Positions 5,660 through 10,780 of a stretch of 64,000 nt of DNA are shown here, piece by piece. This DNA is from Tachypleus tridentatus (taxonomy: Eukaryota > Arthropoda > Merostomata > Xiphosura > Limulidae): contig NC_134825.1 of the NCBI RefSeq assembly GCF_004210375.1, positions 69,121,558 through 69,185,557 of the forward strand. The letters run 5' to 3'. How positions within the stretch are numbered: position 1 is the stretch's first letter; every line of letters begins with the position of its first letter. The notes below the pieces were generated by a model. That model was not told where the DNA came from. It made no database searches and was given only the letters and a program-made list of their open reading frames with translations. A program made the position numbers and the translations under genes.

Positions 5660-5790
5660 ACTGTTTGTTTGTTGTCAAGCGTAAAAACTGTACAGTGGAC
5701 TATCTGTGCTCCGTCCATCACAGGTACGGAAAACTTATTTCTTTCAGGGTCGCAAGACGACAGGCTTTCTGCTGTACCACTAGGGATGGG
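5660..5790 (-). repeat. Short SINE family B copy
   Basis: The minus strand reads CCCTAGTGGTACAGCAG, then a GTACCTGTGATGGACGGAGC segment, then AGCACAGATAGTCC and a CAAACAAACA tail at its left end. The two plus-strand open frames across this stretch (62 and 69 codons) are incidental to the repeat. Confidence 0.5.
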
Positions 5791-5813
5791 GAGGGAGGGA
5801 TTGTTTTGAATTT

Positions 5814-6068
5814 CGCGCAAAGCTACACGAGGGCTATCTGCGTGGGAGGGAGGGTATTTCTAGTTTTATTGTAAAAAAACGATTTTTCAAATAACATCTT
5901 CATAAAGTTCTTTTGTTATGAATTTGTGAATGAGGGCTATATAACGTGATGATCAATCTAGGGTAGATTGGGGGCTGAAAGGGCGAGAATGTTTGATGTG
6001 GTGGGGATTCAAACCCACAACCCTCAGATTTCAAGTTGAGGGCATAACCACCTGGCCATGCTGGGGCC
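5814..6068 (-). repeat. SINE family A, internally interrupted
   Basis: The tail fragment (GAATTTCGCGCAAAGCTACA, 5817-5845) and the head/body part (5941-6068, including GGGGATTCAAACCCACAACC and CACCTGGCCATGCTGGG) are separated by about 95 bp of unrelated or heavily rearranged sequence. Confidence 0.65.
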
Positions 6069-6233
6069 CCTTTTCAAGTACGTTCGTAACTGTAAACTTA
6101 TCAAAGACACGAATTGAGATAGGTTATAGAGTTTTTTCGCAAATCTACACAAAGGGTTAATTTTAACCTGATAGTCAACAACAATGATCGTCAACTTTTG
6201 GTATATTCTTCACTGTCCGCAACCGATGGGAAC

Positions 6234-6246
6234 CATAAATCTTCGT
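6234..6246 (+). repeat. Left target-site duplication of the Penelope insertion
   Basis: The 13-bp sequence CATAAATCTTCGT occurs here and again at 9087-9099, exactly bracketing the palindromic element. The perfect match implies that the whole 2.84-kb structure entered as one insertion. Confidence 0.75.
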
Positions 6247-6270
6247 GATGTCGAGAAACCCACTTGTTGA

Positions 6271-6978
6271 GAAATTTATATGCAAAAAACGGCTCGTTTG
6301 GGTTGAGAAAATATTTTACATAGAAGAGCGAACAACGTTTCGACCTTCTTCGGTCATCGTCAGGTTCACAAAGAAAGAGGTAACTGACCGGAAGCTGACC
6401 ACATGTTTGAAAGGGGTTGTGTAACTGTGTGTCGAAATGTAGAGGGCGGTATTAGATGTTTGAATATATAATTTTATTTATTTATTATATTAATATAGGT
6501 ATAAAGGCGTTCCTTTATATTGGTTTATTTTGGGTTTAAGTTGTTGTATAAGTAAGGCTTCTTTGATTTTGCGTTTGTTTATGTTTGTTTCTTTATTTAG
6601 TATTTGAGTGTTTTCTATGGTTATGTTGTGTTTATTTGACTTGCAGTGTTCGAAAACGTGTGGAGGTGACTTTTTATGTTCTTTGAATCTGGTTTCCATT
6701 TTTCTACTTGTTTCTCCAATATAGAAGTCGTGGCAGTTATCACATTGTATTTTATAAATAATGTTGGTGTGGTGTTTGTCAGTGTAGTTTTTACATAGTA
6801 TAGACCTCAGTTTTGTGCCGGGTTTTTGAATAAATTTGGTATTAACTGGAATGTCATATTTTGTTACTAATTTTTGCCAAATGTTGGTTATTTGTTTGCT
6901 GATGTCAGGAATATATGGTATATAGCAGTATATGGTTTCGTGGTTTTTTGATTCGTGAGCTGTATTTACTGTAGTTGG
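6271..6978 (-). repeat. Left arm of about 700-bp inverted repeat
   Basis: It is the reverse complement of 8382-9087 with only scattered differences. It spans the PLE linker, the GIY-YIG domain, the 3' untranslated region and the ribozyme. The inner end falls at the shared CCAACTACAGTAAATACAG sequence. Confidence 0.85.
6328..6369 (-). ncRNA. Hammerhead ribozyme motif, PLE 3' end (left)
   Basis: On the minus strand the 42 bases read as stem I strand GTGAAC, core CTGACGA, stem II GACC with a GAAGAA loop and GGTC, core GAAA, then the short palindrome ACGT, a T at the expected cleavage position, and stem I strand GTTCGC. The two stem I strands pair over all 6 positions with one G-U pair. Stem III is only the ACGT palindrome, with no room for a loop, so a single molecule could not fold it well. 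Minimal PLE and retrozyme hammerheads of this type are known to work as dimers. The motif was called from visible core and pairing; activity is inferred. Confidence 0.8.
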
Positions 6979-8160
6979 TTGATTTTGCTTTCTGTCTAGG
7001 TGTGTGCGTATAATGTTTTCTACGGTTTATGGAGGAAACTTATTGATGTTGATGAAGTATTGTTTTATTTTGTCTAATTCATCGTTAATTTTATCTGGTG
7101 AGCATAGTTTTATGGCTGTGTTTATTTGGTTTCTTAGTATGTTGAGTTTTTGTTTTGTTTCATGTGCTGAGTCCCAAGGAATGTATGGTCCAGTATGGGT
7201 GATTTTTCGGTGGATTTCTGTTTTGAATTGTGTGTCAGTTCTTGTAATTTTGAGGTTAAGAAATGATATTTGATTGCTTTCTTCCTGTTCACATGTGAAG
7301 TTAATGTTGGGATGTATAAAGTTAATGTGATTGAAAAAATTAAGTATGTGTTCTGTAGATTTGAATCCCGCAACCGAAATTAAAAGAGTCTTTGATGAAT
7401 GAGCTGGCTGATGTTACATATTTGGAGAATTCCCATGCTATGTATTTACCAAGATTGTAATTAAACGATTCACATGTGGACATTATTGGTCGTAATGGAC
7501 AATCTGGTTTATGAGGTTTGGGGATGCCGTATATTTGCGGTGTGCGTGAGTCGGTTTTACGTAGGTAGGAATAAAGTGTTTGTGAAATTGTGTTGGCTTT
7601 TTTTCATTTGTAGTAGTAATTTGTTCAGTTGTGTCTCGTGTGTCTTTGTTGGATTTGTGTTTATTTGTTTAAATTTGTTCGTGTCTGATAGGATGTTATT
7701 CATTTTTTGGATGTATTCATTCGTGTTCATTATGACTATAGCGTTACCTTTATCTGCTTTTAGAATTTTTATGTTTTGTCTTGTTTTAGGTTTTAATGGA
7801 ATTAATGTCTCTTTTGTAAGGTTGTTTTTAGTTTTCTGTTTTGTGAAATTATGTTGATGGTTTGTGAGAAAATTCTTTGAAAAATCGTTTAAGATGTTGT
7901 TTTTAGGTGTTTCTGGAAAATATAAATTTGTAATTTTACCTGGGAAGTTTAGCTGTTGGATGTCAATAAAATTATTTAAGTTGTCTTCTTTCTGTTGGTT
8001 GTGTTTGGTTGTTTCCTTGTTTTTCTTCTGTGTAGAAAGTATCACAAGTCTCCTGGCTAGGTCTTCTAAACATGTTTTGATTTCTATGGTTGGAATGTAC
8101 CTAGGTGCTATTGCGAAGTTGAGTCCTTTGTTAAGTCCTAATTTTGTAAAGGTAAAACTT
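6490..8160 (-). pseudogene. Penelope-like RT/GIY-YIG polyprotein, decayed (minus copy)
   Basis: Read from right to left, the order of domains follows PLEs. First comes an N-terminal segment with GLNFAIAPRYIPT, then a conserved stretch with ILKADKGNAIVIM and an acidic DTNKF segment. After a frameshift near 7560, the fingers motif YGIPKPHKPDCPLRPIMST follows. The reading then jumps near 7375 from the SSFIKDSFNF region directly to the RT C terminus (HILNFFNHINF, ISFLNLKI), so the central palm with the catalytic aspartates (the YxDD-type box) is absent. A stop interrupts the linker near 7030. The last part (to 6490) is a GIY-YIG endonuclease: IYKI, FYIGETSRK, RFKEHK, then a conserved KETNINKRKIKEALLIQ segment. 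PLEs prime reverse transcription at DNA ends or nicks with this endonuclease; this copy could not make an active enzyme. Confidence 0.85.
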
Positions 8161-8164
8161 TCAA

Positions 8165-8869
8165 AAAATTTTAATACATACACGAACATTATCCAAAATT
8201 TACAGAAAAAACTACCTAAAGCCATGTTGAACACAAAATACAAAGAACTACATGACTTACAAAAACAAAAAATGAACCTAGACCATCAACTGGCATGCTG
8301 CATTAAACCAGAGATTTACGGACTTATACAACGAAACATAAACCAAATCAATACTAAGAACGACAGAGACAAAAAGATCTGCCAACTACAGTAAATACAG
8401 CTCACGAATTAAAAAATCACGAAACCATATACTGCTCTATACCATATATTCCTGACATCAGTAAACAAATAACCAACATTTGGCAAAAATTAGTAACAAA
8501 ATATGACATTCCAGTTAATACCAAATTTATTCAAAAACCCGGCACAAAACTGAGGTCTATACTATGTAAAAACTACACTGACAAACACCACACCAACATT
8601 ATTTATAAAATACAATGTGAAAACTGCCACGACTTCTATATTGGAGAAACAGTAGAAAAATGGAAACCAGATTCAAAGAACATAAAAAGTCACCTTCACA
8701 CGTTTTCGAACACTGCAAGTCAAATAAACACAACATAACCATAGAAAACACTCAAATACTAAATAAAGAAACAAACATAAACAAACGCAAAATCAAAGAA
8801 GCCTTACTTATACAACAACTTAAACCCAAAATAAACCAATATAAAGGAACGCCTTTATACCTATATTAA
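8165..8869 (+). pseudogene. Penelope-like ORF, internally deleted (plus copy)
   Basis: The frame starts with a basic N-terminal PLE-like region (KAMLNTKYKELHDLQKQK, LDHQLACCIKPE, to about 8380). It then runs at CCAACTACAG straight into the linker and GIY-YIG part, so the whole RT domain is missing. The GIY-YIG residues IYKI and FYIGET are present. A 1-bp deletion near 8650, relative to the minus copy, then shifts the frame. The shifted frame continues as METRFKEHKK to the normal stop at 8867-8869. The copy is therefore doubly inactivated. Confidence 0.8.
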
Positions 8870-9087
8870 TATAATAAATAAATAAAATTATATATTCAAA
8901 CATCTAATACCGCCCTCTACATTTCGACACACAGTTACACAACCCCTTTCAAACATGTGGTCAGCTTCCGGTCAGTTACCTCTTTCTTTGTGAACCTGAC
9001 GATGACCGAAAAAGGTCGAAACGTTGTTCGCTCTTCTATGTAAAATATTTTCTCAACCCAAACGAGCCGTTTTTGCATATAAATTTC
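8382..9087 (+). repeat. Right arm of about 700-bp inverted repeat
   Basis: Partner of 6271-6978. It carries a 1-bp deletion near 8650 relative to the left arm, which shifts the frame within the GIY-YIG domain, plus a few substitutions (for example a loop change in the ribozyme). Confidence 0.85.
8990..9031 (+). ncRNA. Hammerhead ribozyme motif, PLE 3' end (right)
   Basis: This is the plus-strand counterpart of the left motif, with the same stem I pair (GTGAAC / GTTCGC), CTGACGA core, GACC/GGTC stem II, GAAA core and ACGT palindromic stem III. The only difference is in the stem II loop (GAAAAA instead of GAAGAA), which should not affect the core. Both catalytic boxes are intact. Confidence 0.8.
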
Positions 9088-9099
9088 ATAAATCTTCGT
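9087..9099 (+). repeat. Right target-site duplication of the Penelope insertion
   Basis: Perfect repeat of the 13 bases at 6234-6246, immediately abutting the end of the right arm. Confidence 0.75.
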
Positions 9100-10780
9100 A
9101 TTCACAGCCTCATATGCTAATTATTAGGCCACTCCAGGCCAGAGTCAGAATAATACATTTACAGTGACTAATTTTATTGGTGAAGACCCTTTTGGATATT
9201 TTACAGGATTGAAAATTGTTCTGTCTATTGTTTTACATCACCTTGATGTTTAAATGATAGTTCGTCTGTTTATTTATTATAAAAGCATACCAAAAATAAA
9301 ATTCCAAAGCACTTTAGATGTAGAAATACTACATATTTTTATTTTATTTTTTGAAAAGTTTTGGGAGAAGAAATCGATCACAAATAAATAATGCACAATC
9401 CAGTTTCTAGTTTTAAAACATGTTTAAACTTCAGTGACATAAGAGGCAATTTAATACTGGGGAGGGGCAAGATTTATTTAACCTAACGAAGCGACGAAAT
9501 GTACGCCTGAGGCGCACCTGTTACTGCTTGGATCCAGAGCTCGCCTTAGAGCCCTGGGAGTTATTGATTAAATATTATGCATTCTCCTGCCTTCCTAATC
9601 TTAATACATTTTTACAAGGAAAGATTGAACCTCGGAGGTGCCTACTTCCATGTACCCCGCCACTAAACTTGATTTCGAAAAATGTTTATAGCTATGTTCA
9701 TTTCTTTACTAAATCTTAATGTGCATTTCATGAATTCATTTTGAACTTTCTAATTCTGTAGTTTTAAAATTTCGTACATCAACGATTAAGTTTCGGCAAT
9801 ATGTAAATTATCATCTACACTGAGAACTGAGTAATTGCCACGGTAAAATATTTCTGGTATTGTCGACAGTCGCTATTATTTGAGGAATCTCACTCAGTTG
9901 CTTTACAATATCTTAGCAATTGAAACACATAATTGTGTCACCACGTTTACAAATTCTTCAACCATTTTTCAGCAAAAGGCGAAGAAATTCACGTTCTTGG
10001 ACGCACGTGGGTTGCACGAGATATCTTCGATCTGGCAAGGCTTTAGTTTTCATTTTCTCAATGGCGAACGCACGAATGTGAGCACATGCTTGTATAATCA
10101 AAGTTTCCCGATAAAGTTAAATGGTGTCACGTTGTTCGACATGGTTAAAGTTACGCTGATCAAAAACTGTGATTGCTGAAAATAAAACACTAAAGAAATA
10201 TTTTTAAAACGAGAATGATCCAGATTAGTTCAGAATGTTGCCATTCTGGCATTTACCACGTTCATGATGCTTACAATAAAGTTCGAAGGGCAAGAAGTCC
10301 TTTCCGAAAGTCCTCCAATCCACGGGCGGTAGCAGTGCCATCAGGTCTATACAGTTGTCGCGTAGATGAGCCGGAGTGTCGAATGTACCGTTCTTTAGAA
10401 GAGAGAGCAATAGAAGTGCTTATACGTCTTCGAAACGACACAGTCAGTCGGATAAGATTACGTTCATATTAAAGAAAACTGTGAATTGTTAACATTTGTA
10501 TTACACTCAGGATTTGTCAAAAAAAAAGGGGGGGGGGCAGAAGAAGGTATGGAGATTAAACAATGTTTCTCGCATTTCTCTCGTAAATAACTGTCGGTGT
10601 TGATTTTACAAAAAATCTTTTACGCACTGTTTCAGAGATTTTGTTACACTTTTATATTGTCATGTGTAACAGAAAAATCTTTAACAACTCCATCGTATGT
10701 TTCTGTAGACTAAAAATACATTATTATCTCTTCGTAAGCCATTGTTATTATTTATCATGCATGAAATAATTTGTGTTCGT
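9100..10780. other. Non-coding or unknown, partly GC-richer block
   Basis: Most is AT-rich, but 9420-9680 and 9990-10480 are richer in G+C and CpG than the surroundings. Open frames exist on both strands (plus 9880-10179, 99 codons; plus 10215-10472, 85 codons; minus 10225-10410, 61 codons). None shows a known domain or convincing splice borders. It could hold a promoter or first exon of the SNAPC2-like gene downstream, or an old element. A poly-A/poly-G run lies at 10520-10537. Confidence 0.35.

Follow-up and report, generated by a model that had tools for sequence, protein, structure and literature searches.

Head-to-head Penelope-type insertions in Tachypleus tridentatus: a single target-site duplication and the pairing of one long with one short end

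A 64,000-nt stretch of contig NC_134825.1 of Tachypleus tridentatus (the window) holds two arms of a Penelope-type element (PLE) that lie head to head with their 3' ends outward, which raises the question of whether such a palindrome is made by one integration or by two and, if by one, how its second arm is primed. The initial annotation had recognised the head-to-head pair and alignment bears it out: one inverted arm pair (6285-6708/8651-9074) runs for 424 nt at 100% identity as rounded, a second (6709-6993/8367-8651) for 285 nt at 96%, and the outermost inverted 18 nt are 6271-6288/9070-9087. The arms are unequal, the left copy having a 24-nt additional 3' tail that the right copy lacks. Internal deletions in both arms, the larger of them in the right, mean that neither copy has a whole reading frame. 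The arms meet bluntly with 0 nt overlap, about 18 nt from the junction near 8155 that had been proposed at first (Table 1).

Table 1. Features of the palindromic insertion and its flanks in window coordinates; unit positions refer to a 2,852-bp tandem unit from contig 10, which served as the position ruler throughout.
Feature	Positions	Strand	Basis
Left flank, in dispersed repeat with empty paralogs	5997-6246		Flank search
Target-site duplication (TSD), left copy, 13 bp, CATAAATCTTCGT	6234-6246		Exact match to right copy; five empty paralogs have it once
Left PLE arm (L arm), 3' end outward, reaches unit position 596	6247-8136	-	Matched to unit
3' tail of left (long-ended, L) arm, between two inferred reverse transcription (RT) start sites; ends CATC(AC), 3 nt before the family's usual CACTGA end	6247-6270	-	End comparison
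Hammerhead-like core (CTGACGA ... GAAA), ATG inside	6330-6366	-	Seen by eye; Rfam negative
Open C-terminal fragment, 178 aa, IIYKI...FYIGETSRKMETR, GIY-YIG-like motif	6490-7026	-	By eye; Pfam negative
Left-arm internal deletion joint, about 355 nt (unit 1362-1716)	7376-7377	-	Matched to unit
Head-to-head junction, blunt, unit 596 vs 229	8136-8137		Matched to unit
Right PLE arm (short-ended, S), 3' end outward, tail absent, ends GCATATAAATTT	8137-9086	+	Alignment and unit match
Right-arm internal deletion joint, unit 476 to 2107; BLAST pieces overlap 11 nt	8374-8384	+	BLAST against unit
TSD, right copy	9087-9099		Exact 13-mer match
Right flank, same dispersed repeat as left flank	9100-9349		Flank search

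The two arms are bracketed by one perfect 13-bp duplication, the exact 13-mer lying outside both of them as had been noted from the start. Among 3,000 mismatched flank pairs the longest common word reached 10 or 11 letters in 23 and did not exceed 11 in any. The element ends account equally for three of the 13 letters (gaps -2 and -1), whose assignment is therefore ambiguous on the filled site; all 13 are present in empty sites. The flanks belong to a dispersed repeat. When the joined flanks (250 + 250) were searched, 40 of 1,352 candidates were scored, namely 20 long paralogous matches (89-96% identity, 15 on contig C19), the window's own two halves and 18 short one-end matches. All 20 long matches continue across the target (13 over positions 1-500, six over 28-499/500 and one over 81-500), and the five that were read each have a single CATAAATCTTCGT at the target; these empty sites are paralogs rather than alleles and show the pre-insertion target. 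The short matches fall in the end part of a SINE-like stretch at about 5760-6070 (GATTCAAACCCACAACCCTCAG), which by its appearance we take to be a tRNA-derived SINE. Because the empty paralogs hold one 13-mer and a single duplication lies outside both arms, the window palindrome is, as far as sequence comparison can tell, one integration, as the initial annotation had argued. An origin by two separate insertions, nested or adjacent and oppositely oriented, or by a later rearrangement, would draw on a family that is abundant (a 66-mer of the element occurs exactly 2,415 times) and forms tandems, but would have to be reconciled with the single outer TSD and the empty site, with arms that share source alleles in most cases and with the recurrence of the same form at about 30 loci. 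We consider this origin very improbable.

Head-to-head copies turn out to be the commonest form in the sample read, contrary to the first impression that this copy is unusual; the same architecture recurs at some 30 loci in this genome, and almost every one of them has a duplication of about 13 bp to itself. The 66-mer lies near the 3' end and is found 1,194 + 1,221 times in the 2.17-Gb genome. One hundred of these places were listed, all on contig 1, and they form 78 clusters: 21 with head-to-head members no more than 6 kb apart, 57 apparently single and none tail to tail. Nineteen of the 21 and 33 of the 57 were fetched, which places 25 clusters outside the sample, and the window was counted separately. 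The 19 had been chosen for this form and are accordingly all head to head; an inverted arm was found in 18 of the 33 apparent singles, four of which (L018 and L022-L024) have an inverted arm that ends inside the element. The window is in effect a 34th apparent single and is likewise a palindrome. Extrapolation (21 + 57 x 18/33) puts the head-to-head share at about two thirds of the 78 clusters, an estimate that may be low because four fetched singles (L054, L056, L059 and L060) run beyond the stretch. The head-to-head arrangement is thus a common form of this PLE family here and not an odd copy. The family also forms tandems: on C10, units of 2,852 bp follow one another head to tail, C4 has a similar series, and L040 reads through into a second unit. 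Two groups of loci are related beyond the element itself. L010 and L011, some 765 kb from each other on C1, have an identical palindrome and identical flanks, and are either a segmental duplication or an assembly duplicate. L022, L023 and L024, about 0.2 Mb apart, were probably copied together with their surroundings, since they have the same 3' flank and a similar inner-ending arm.

The outer ends of the arms fall at two places, a long end after CACTGA and a short end about 30 nt upstream at GCATATA. With one mismatch allowed, CACTGA precedes the end in 31 of 33 long ends (29 exact), the exceptions being the window and L035, which stop at CAC, and GCATATA is found at all 30 short ends. Thirty-two independent palindromes have both outer ends at a standard place: 30 are long/short, two are short/short and none is long/long. 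Independent choice would make half of them mixed (P = 1.1e-7), and the deviation persists when L018 and the L022-L024 group are counted in as exceptions (P = 3e-6). Among the listed matches, ten of ten further typable pairs are also mixed and three more are not typable. Tails with up to three mismatches number 5,195, and the 100 exact ones listed include no pair that face one another at a distance of up to 6 kb. L043 and L055 alone among the palindromes read are short/short, and both lack a TSD; for L043 the type of the left end was assigned by eye from its letters. L003 and L008, among the 30, come from a whole-palindrome search, which favours palindromes but not end types. The count leaves aside L011 (flanks as in L010), L009 (contig start), L040 (read-through), six loci with one end beyond the stretch (L047, L051, L054, L056, L059 and L060), the inner-ending L018 and L022-L024, and insertions that have no second standard arm (L015-L017, the first element of L019, L025, L028, L041, L046, L049, L052 and L057). 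An assembly artefact, in which the library or the assembler creates a false palindrome, is hardly credible given flanks that vary by locus, a TSD around most pairs and ends that differ in the same way in 30 of 32. The palindrome at L019 (4930-5085) measures only about 155 bp, yet its ends are one long and one short and its TSD has 13 bp. L049 and L052 have short-ended arms, and on the other side some 12-28 nt of unmatched letters followed by a 12-13 bp TSD; in L049 these letters end in ACTGA and perhaps represent a very short long-ended arm.

Duplications accompany the mixed ends. At least 10 exact TSD letters flank 26 of the 30 long/short palindromes, with a mode of 13 (18/30), as against four of 15 insertions without a standard second arm (Fisher P 0.0006, L022-L024 counted once). 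Of the remaining four, L053 has none, and the repeats of L035, L036 and L058 (14, 14 and 11) are imperfect or overlap the element. A more complex arrangement is seen at L003 (470-2990), where the TSD ATATGATATCATT encloses an S arm, a unit with a complete tail, about 227 nt of non-unit sequence and a fragment of pseudo-LTR (pLTR) with tail. Foreign DNA seems to have been captured, resembling the accessible description of Pen1 of Adineta, for which captured foreign DNA is reported (PMC3846280).

The architecture argues strongly for filing the family as a PLE, a placement that is not proven by every domain. A fit to endonuclease-bearing (EN+) PLEs is seen in the reverse transcriptase domain (RVT_1, E 3.7e-12 in L010 and 1.5e-11 in L005, with YWYRYVDDT), which may be of the PLE/telomerase branch, in the tandem or partial-tandem units with pLTRs (C10, C4 and L040), in the TSDs and in the tail at one 3' end, which is optional and 30-40 bp long in EN+ PLEs and about 30 nt long here. 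The first flank letters are mostly A or T, in line with the AT-rich targets of EN+ PLEs. The GIY-YIG and hammerhead assignments rest on motifs read by eye. The GIY-YIG-like motif reads IIYKI...FYIGET, and neither Pfam nor NCBIfam gave a GIY-YIG match, weak WWE (E 0.023) and MobA (E 0.056) matches being taken as chance. The three window ORFs examined had no Pfam match. A PDB sequence search also found nothing, and the predicted structure of a C-terminal fragment, with a mean pLDDT of 38, was unusable. Rfam detected no hammerhead in the window part or in L061; its PK-PYVV match in the window part (E 0.68, far below the gathering score) was likewise taken as chance.

Differences between arms were divided into those at which both alleles recur in other insertions (shared polymorphism) and the rest. 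In 28 of the 30 mixed palindromes (L019 and L045 aside), shared-polymorphism differences within insertions number 25 in 13,800 bp (1.8 per kb), compared with 3,185 in 306,196 bp between insertions (10.4 per kb), and none of 10,000 re-pairings gave a value as low as that observed within; with 24 insertions, the corresponding counts of an earlier run were 10 in 13,528 and 2,247 in 267,879. The two arms of one insertion thus usually come from one source, which may be one RNA molecule or two RNAs from the same locus. Of the 21 insertions whose arms overlap by at least 100 bp, 13 have no such difference and eight have one to seven, so a shared source is not proven for each insertion. The highest values are those of L058 (7) and L012 (5), the clearest of a few insertions that look like products of two different templates. 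Gene conversion within the palindrome could lower arm differences but is a poor alternative, because L021 keeps 19 of them, none at shared sites.

In an alternative model one cDNA, or an antisense RNA, folds back and is itself copied into the second arm. Such hairpin or self-priming accounts for the head-to-head form and the near-identical arms, and long overlaps at the joint are seen in two cases (28 nt in L019 and 14 nt in L039). A fold-back copy must, however, nest within its template at both ends. In 16 of the 30 palindromes, including that of the window, the S arm reaches further 5' while the L arm reaches further 3', and these cannot be fold-backs of either arm. The L arm reaches further 5' in 13, nested palindromes that do not contradict folding back, and one is a tie; if differences of up to 20 nt are ignored the counts become 14, 13 and 3. 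For L008 and L029 the extra 5' reach of the S arm lies beyond an internal jump, and L045 was set by hand. Folding back also does not predict a fixed second end, and we regard it as unlikely.

In twin priming of L1 elements, inverted arms inside one TSD are the usual product and the segments are largely complementary, the second priming occurring at variable internal places with no fixed second site. The insertions described here are similar in that both target ends would prime reverse transcription in one integration. An L1-style event, with the second target end priming the same RNA at a random internal place, would suit L018 and L022-L024 with their inner-ending arm. Against it, both arm ends could be placed in 34 independent head-to-head insertions, and in 32 of these the second arm terminates at a standard site, long or short, from which onwards the two arms overlap. 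L1-style priming thus appears improbable for most copies. The initial annotation had offered twin priming, or template switching, on a circular or dimeric RNA. The first of these comes close to the reading that we prefer, except that the second start is fixed in most copies and not random and internal; nothing in the data shows a circular or dimeric RNA.

We favour, at a probability of roughly three in four, a reading in which the window copy goes back to two-sided target-primed reverse transcription, by which an endonuclease-type Penelope retrotransposon inserted once. Its endonuclease would cut both target strands in a staggered manner to leave 13-nt 3' overhangs, and the 3' end of each target strand would then prime reverse transcription of the element RNA, one at the long site and the other at the short site. 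Each cDNA would extend towards the 5' end of the RNA and halt at an arbitrary point, after which the two cDNA ends would be joined, mostly via 1-4 nt of microhomology or with filler. This would leave a 13-bp duplication around a palindrome of head-to-head arms, each with its 3' end outward and only one with a tail. Of these steps we infer the overhang polarity, the copying of RNA by both primers and the joining. At the 34 joints measured, 25 are direct and nine have filler; 21 of the 25 direct joints overlap by at least 1 nt (median 2) where 43% would be expected, the observed values being BLAST piece overlaps and the expected ones exact extensions, which are not measured quite alike. The target beyond the long end resembles the RNA that follows (TTATT...), with a mean run of 1.65 against 0.69 in shuffles over 31 ends, a likeness that may stem from pairing between primer and RNA or from a preference in cutting. 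In folding, the RNA surrounding the start sites does no better than shuffles (z -0.16). The window copy departs from the family in its blunt joint, its non-standard long end and two arm differences at shared-polymorphic sites. Two-sided priming is opposed by the short/short palindromes without TSD and by the four loci whose second arm ends inside the element.

Comparison with known Penelope elements supports parts of this scheme. The accessible part of a 2013 study of EN+ elements in Adineta vaga and other animals describes pLTRs in direct or inverted orientation, head to head being commonest among the inverted ones, TSDs of 8, 9 and 10 bp, a 31-bp tail that is optional on one inverted pLTR and a microhomology joint, and proposes self-priming for head-to-head PLEs (PMC3846280). 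The direct or inverted pLTRs, the commonness of head to head, the TSD, the one-sided tail and the microhomology joint are alike here. In contrast, the TSD is mostly 13 bp and the family very abundant, which makes the tail rule and the source of the arms countable, and the self-priming model as set out there does not fit half of the palindromes. For PAc, a Poseidon PLE of Anolis carolinensis, the available text of a 2024 study reports that both target strands are cut and extended in vitro, with cutting at ATT, and that reverse transcription starts at two adjacent sites bounding the tail, later integration steps being unvalidated (PMC11167929). PAc and the present family have in common the two start sites bounding the tail, tandem units with a pLTR and an ORF start in a hammerhead motif (here a motif read by eye). 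They differ in that PAc, according to the same text, shows no difference in start site between the top and bottom strand and no homology to the cut DNA, whereas here each end takes one site in 30 of 32 palindromes and a slight target homology (TTA) lies beyond the long site. These in vitro results thus do not bear out a strict use of one site each. In the literature searched, with most subscription papers outside it, we found no published count of a one-long-one-short rule or of a common arm source, and priority is not claimed.

The insertion itself is ordinary and of a known kind, with a clean empty site, and the useful addition is the one-long-one-short rule. It leads to a stronger proposal, towards which we lean only slightly: that Penelope integration is obligately asymmetric and two-sided, with a complex, probably dimeric, using the long start on one strand and the short start on the other, and RNA of one source locus. 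The palindrome would then be the normal product, and a single-armed copy without TSD an aborted one. How Penelope elements integrate is still open in the literature as far as the two sources describe it, between the self-priming of 2013 and the two-strand extension in vitro of 2024 (PMC3846280, PMC11167929). If true, obligate asymmetric integration would replace the self-priming model and account for the tail on one arm only. The thousands of copies in this genome make tail pairing, arm nesting, source alleles and TSDs countable, and models of integration therefore separable by counting; the counts speak for two-sided priming and yield a sharp prediction for bench work.
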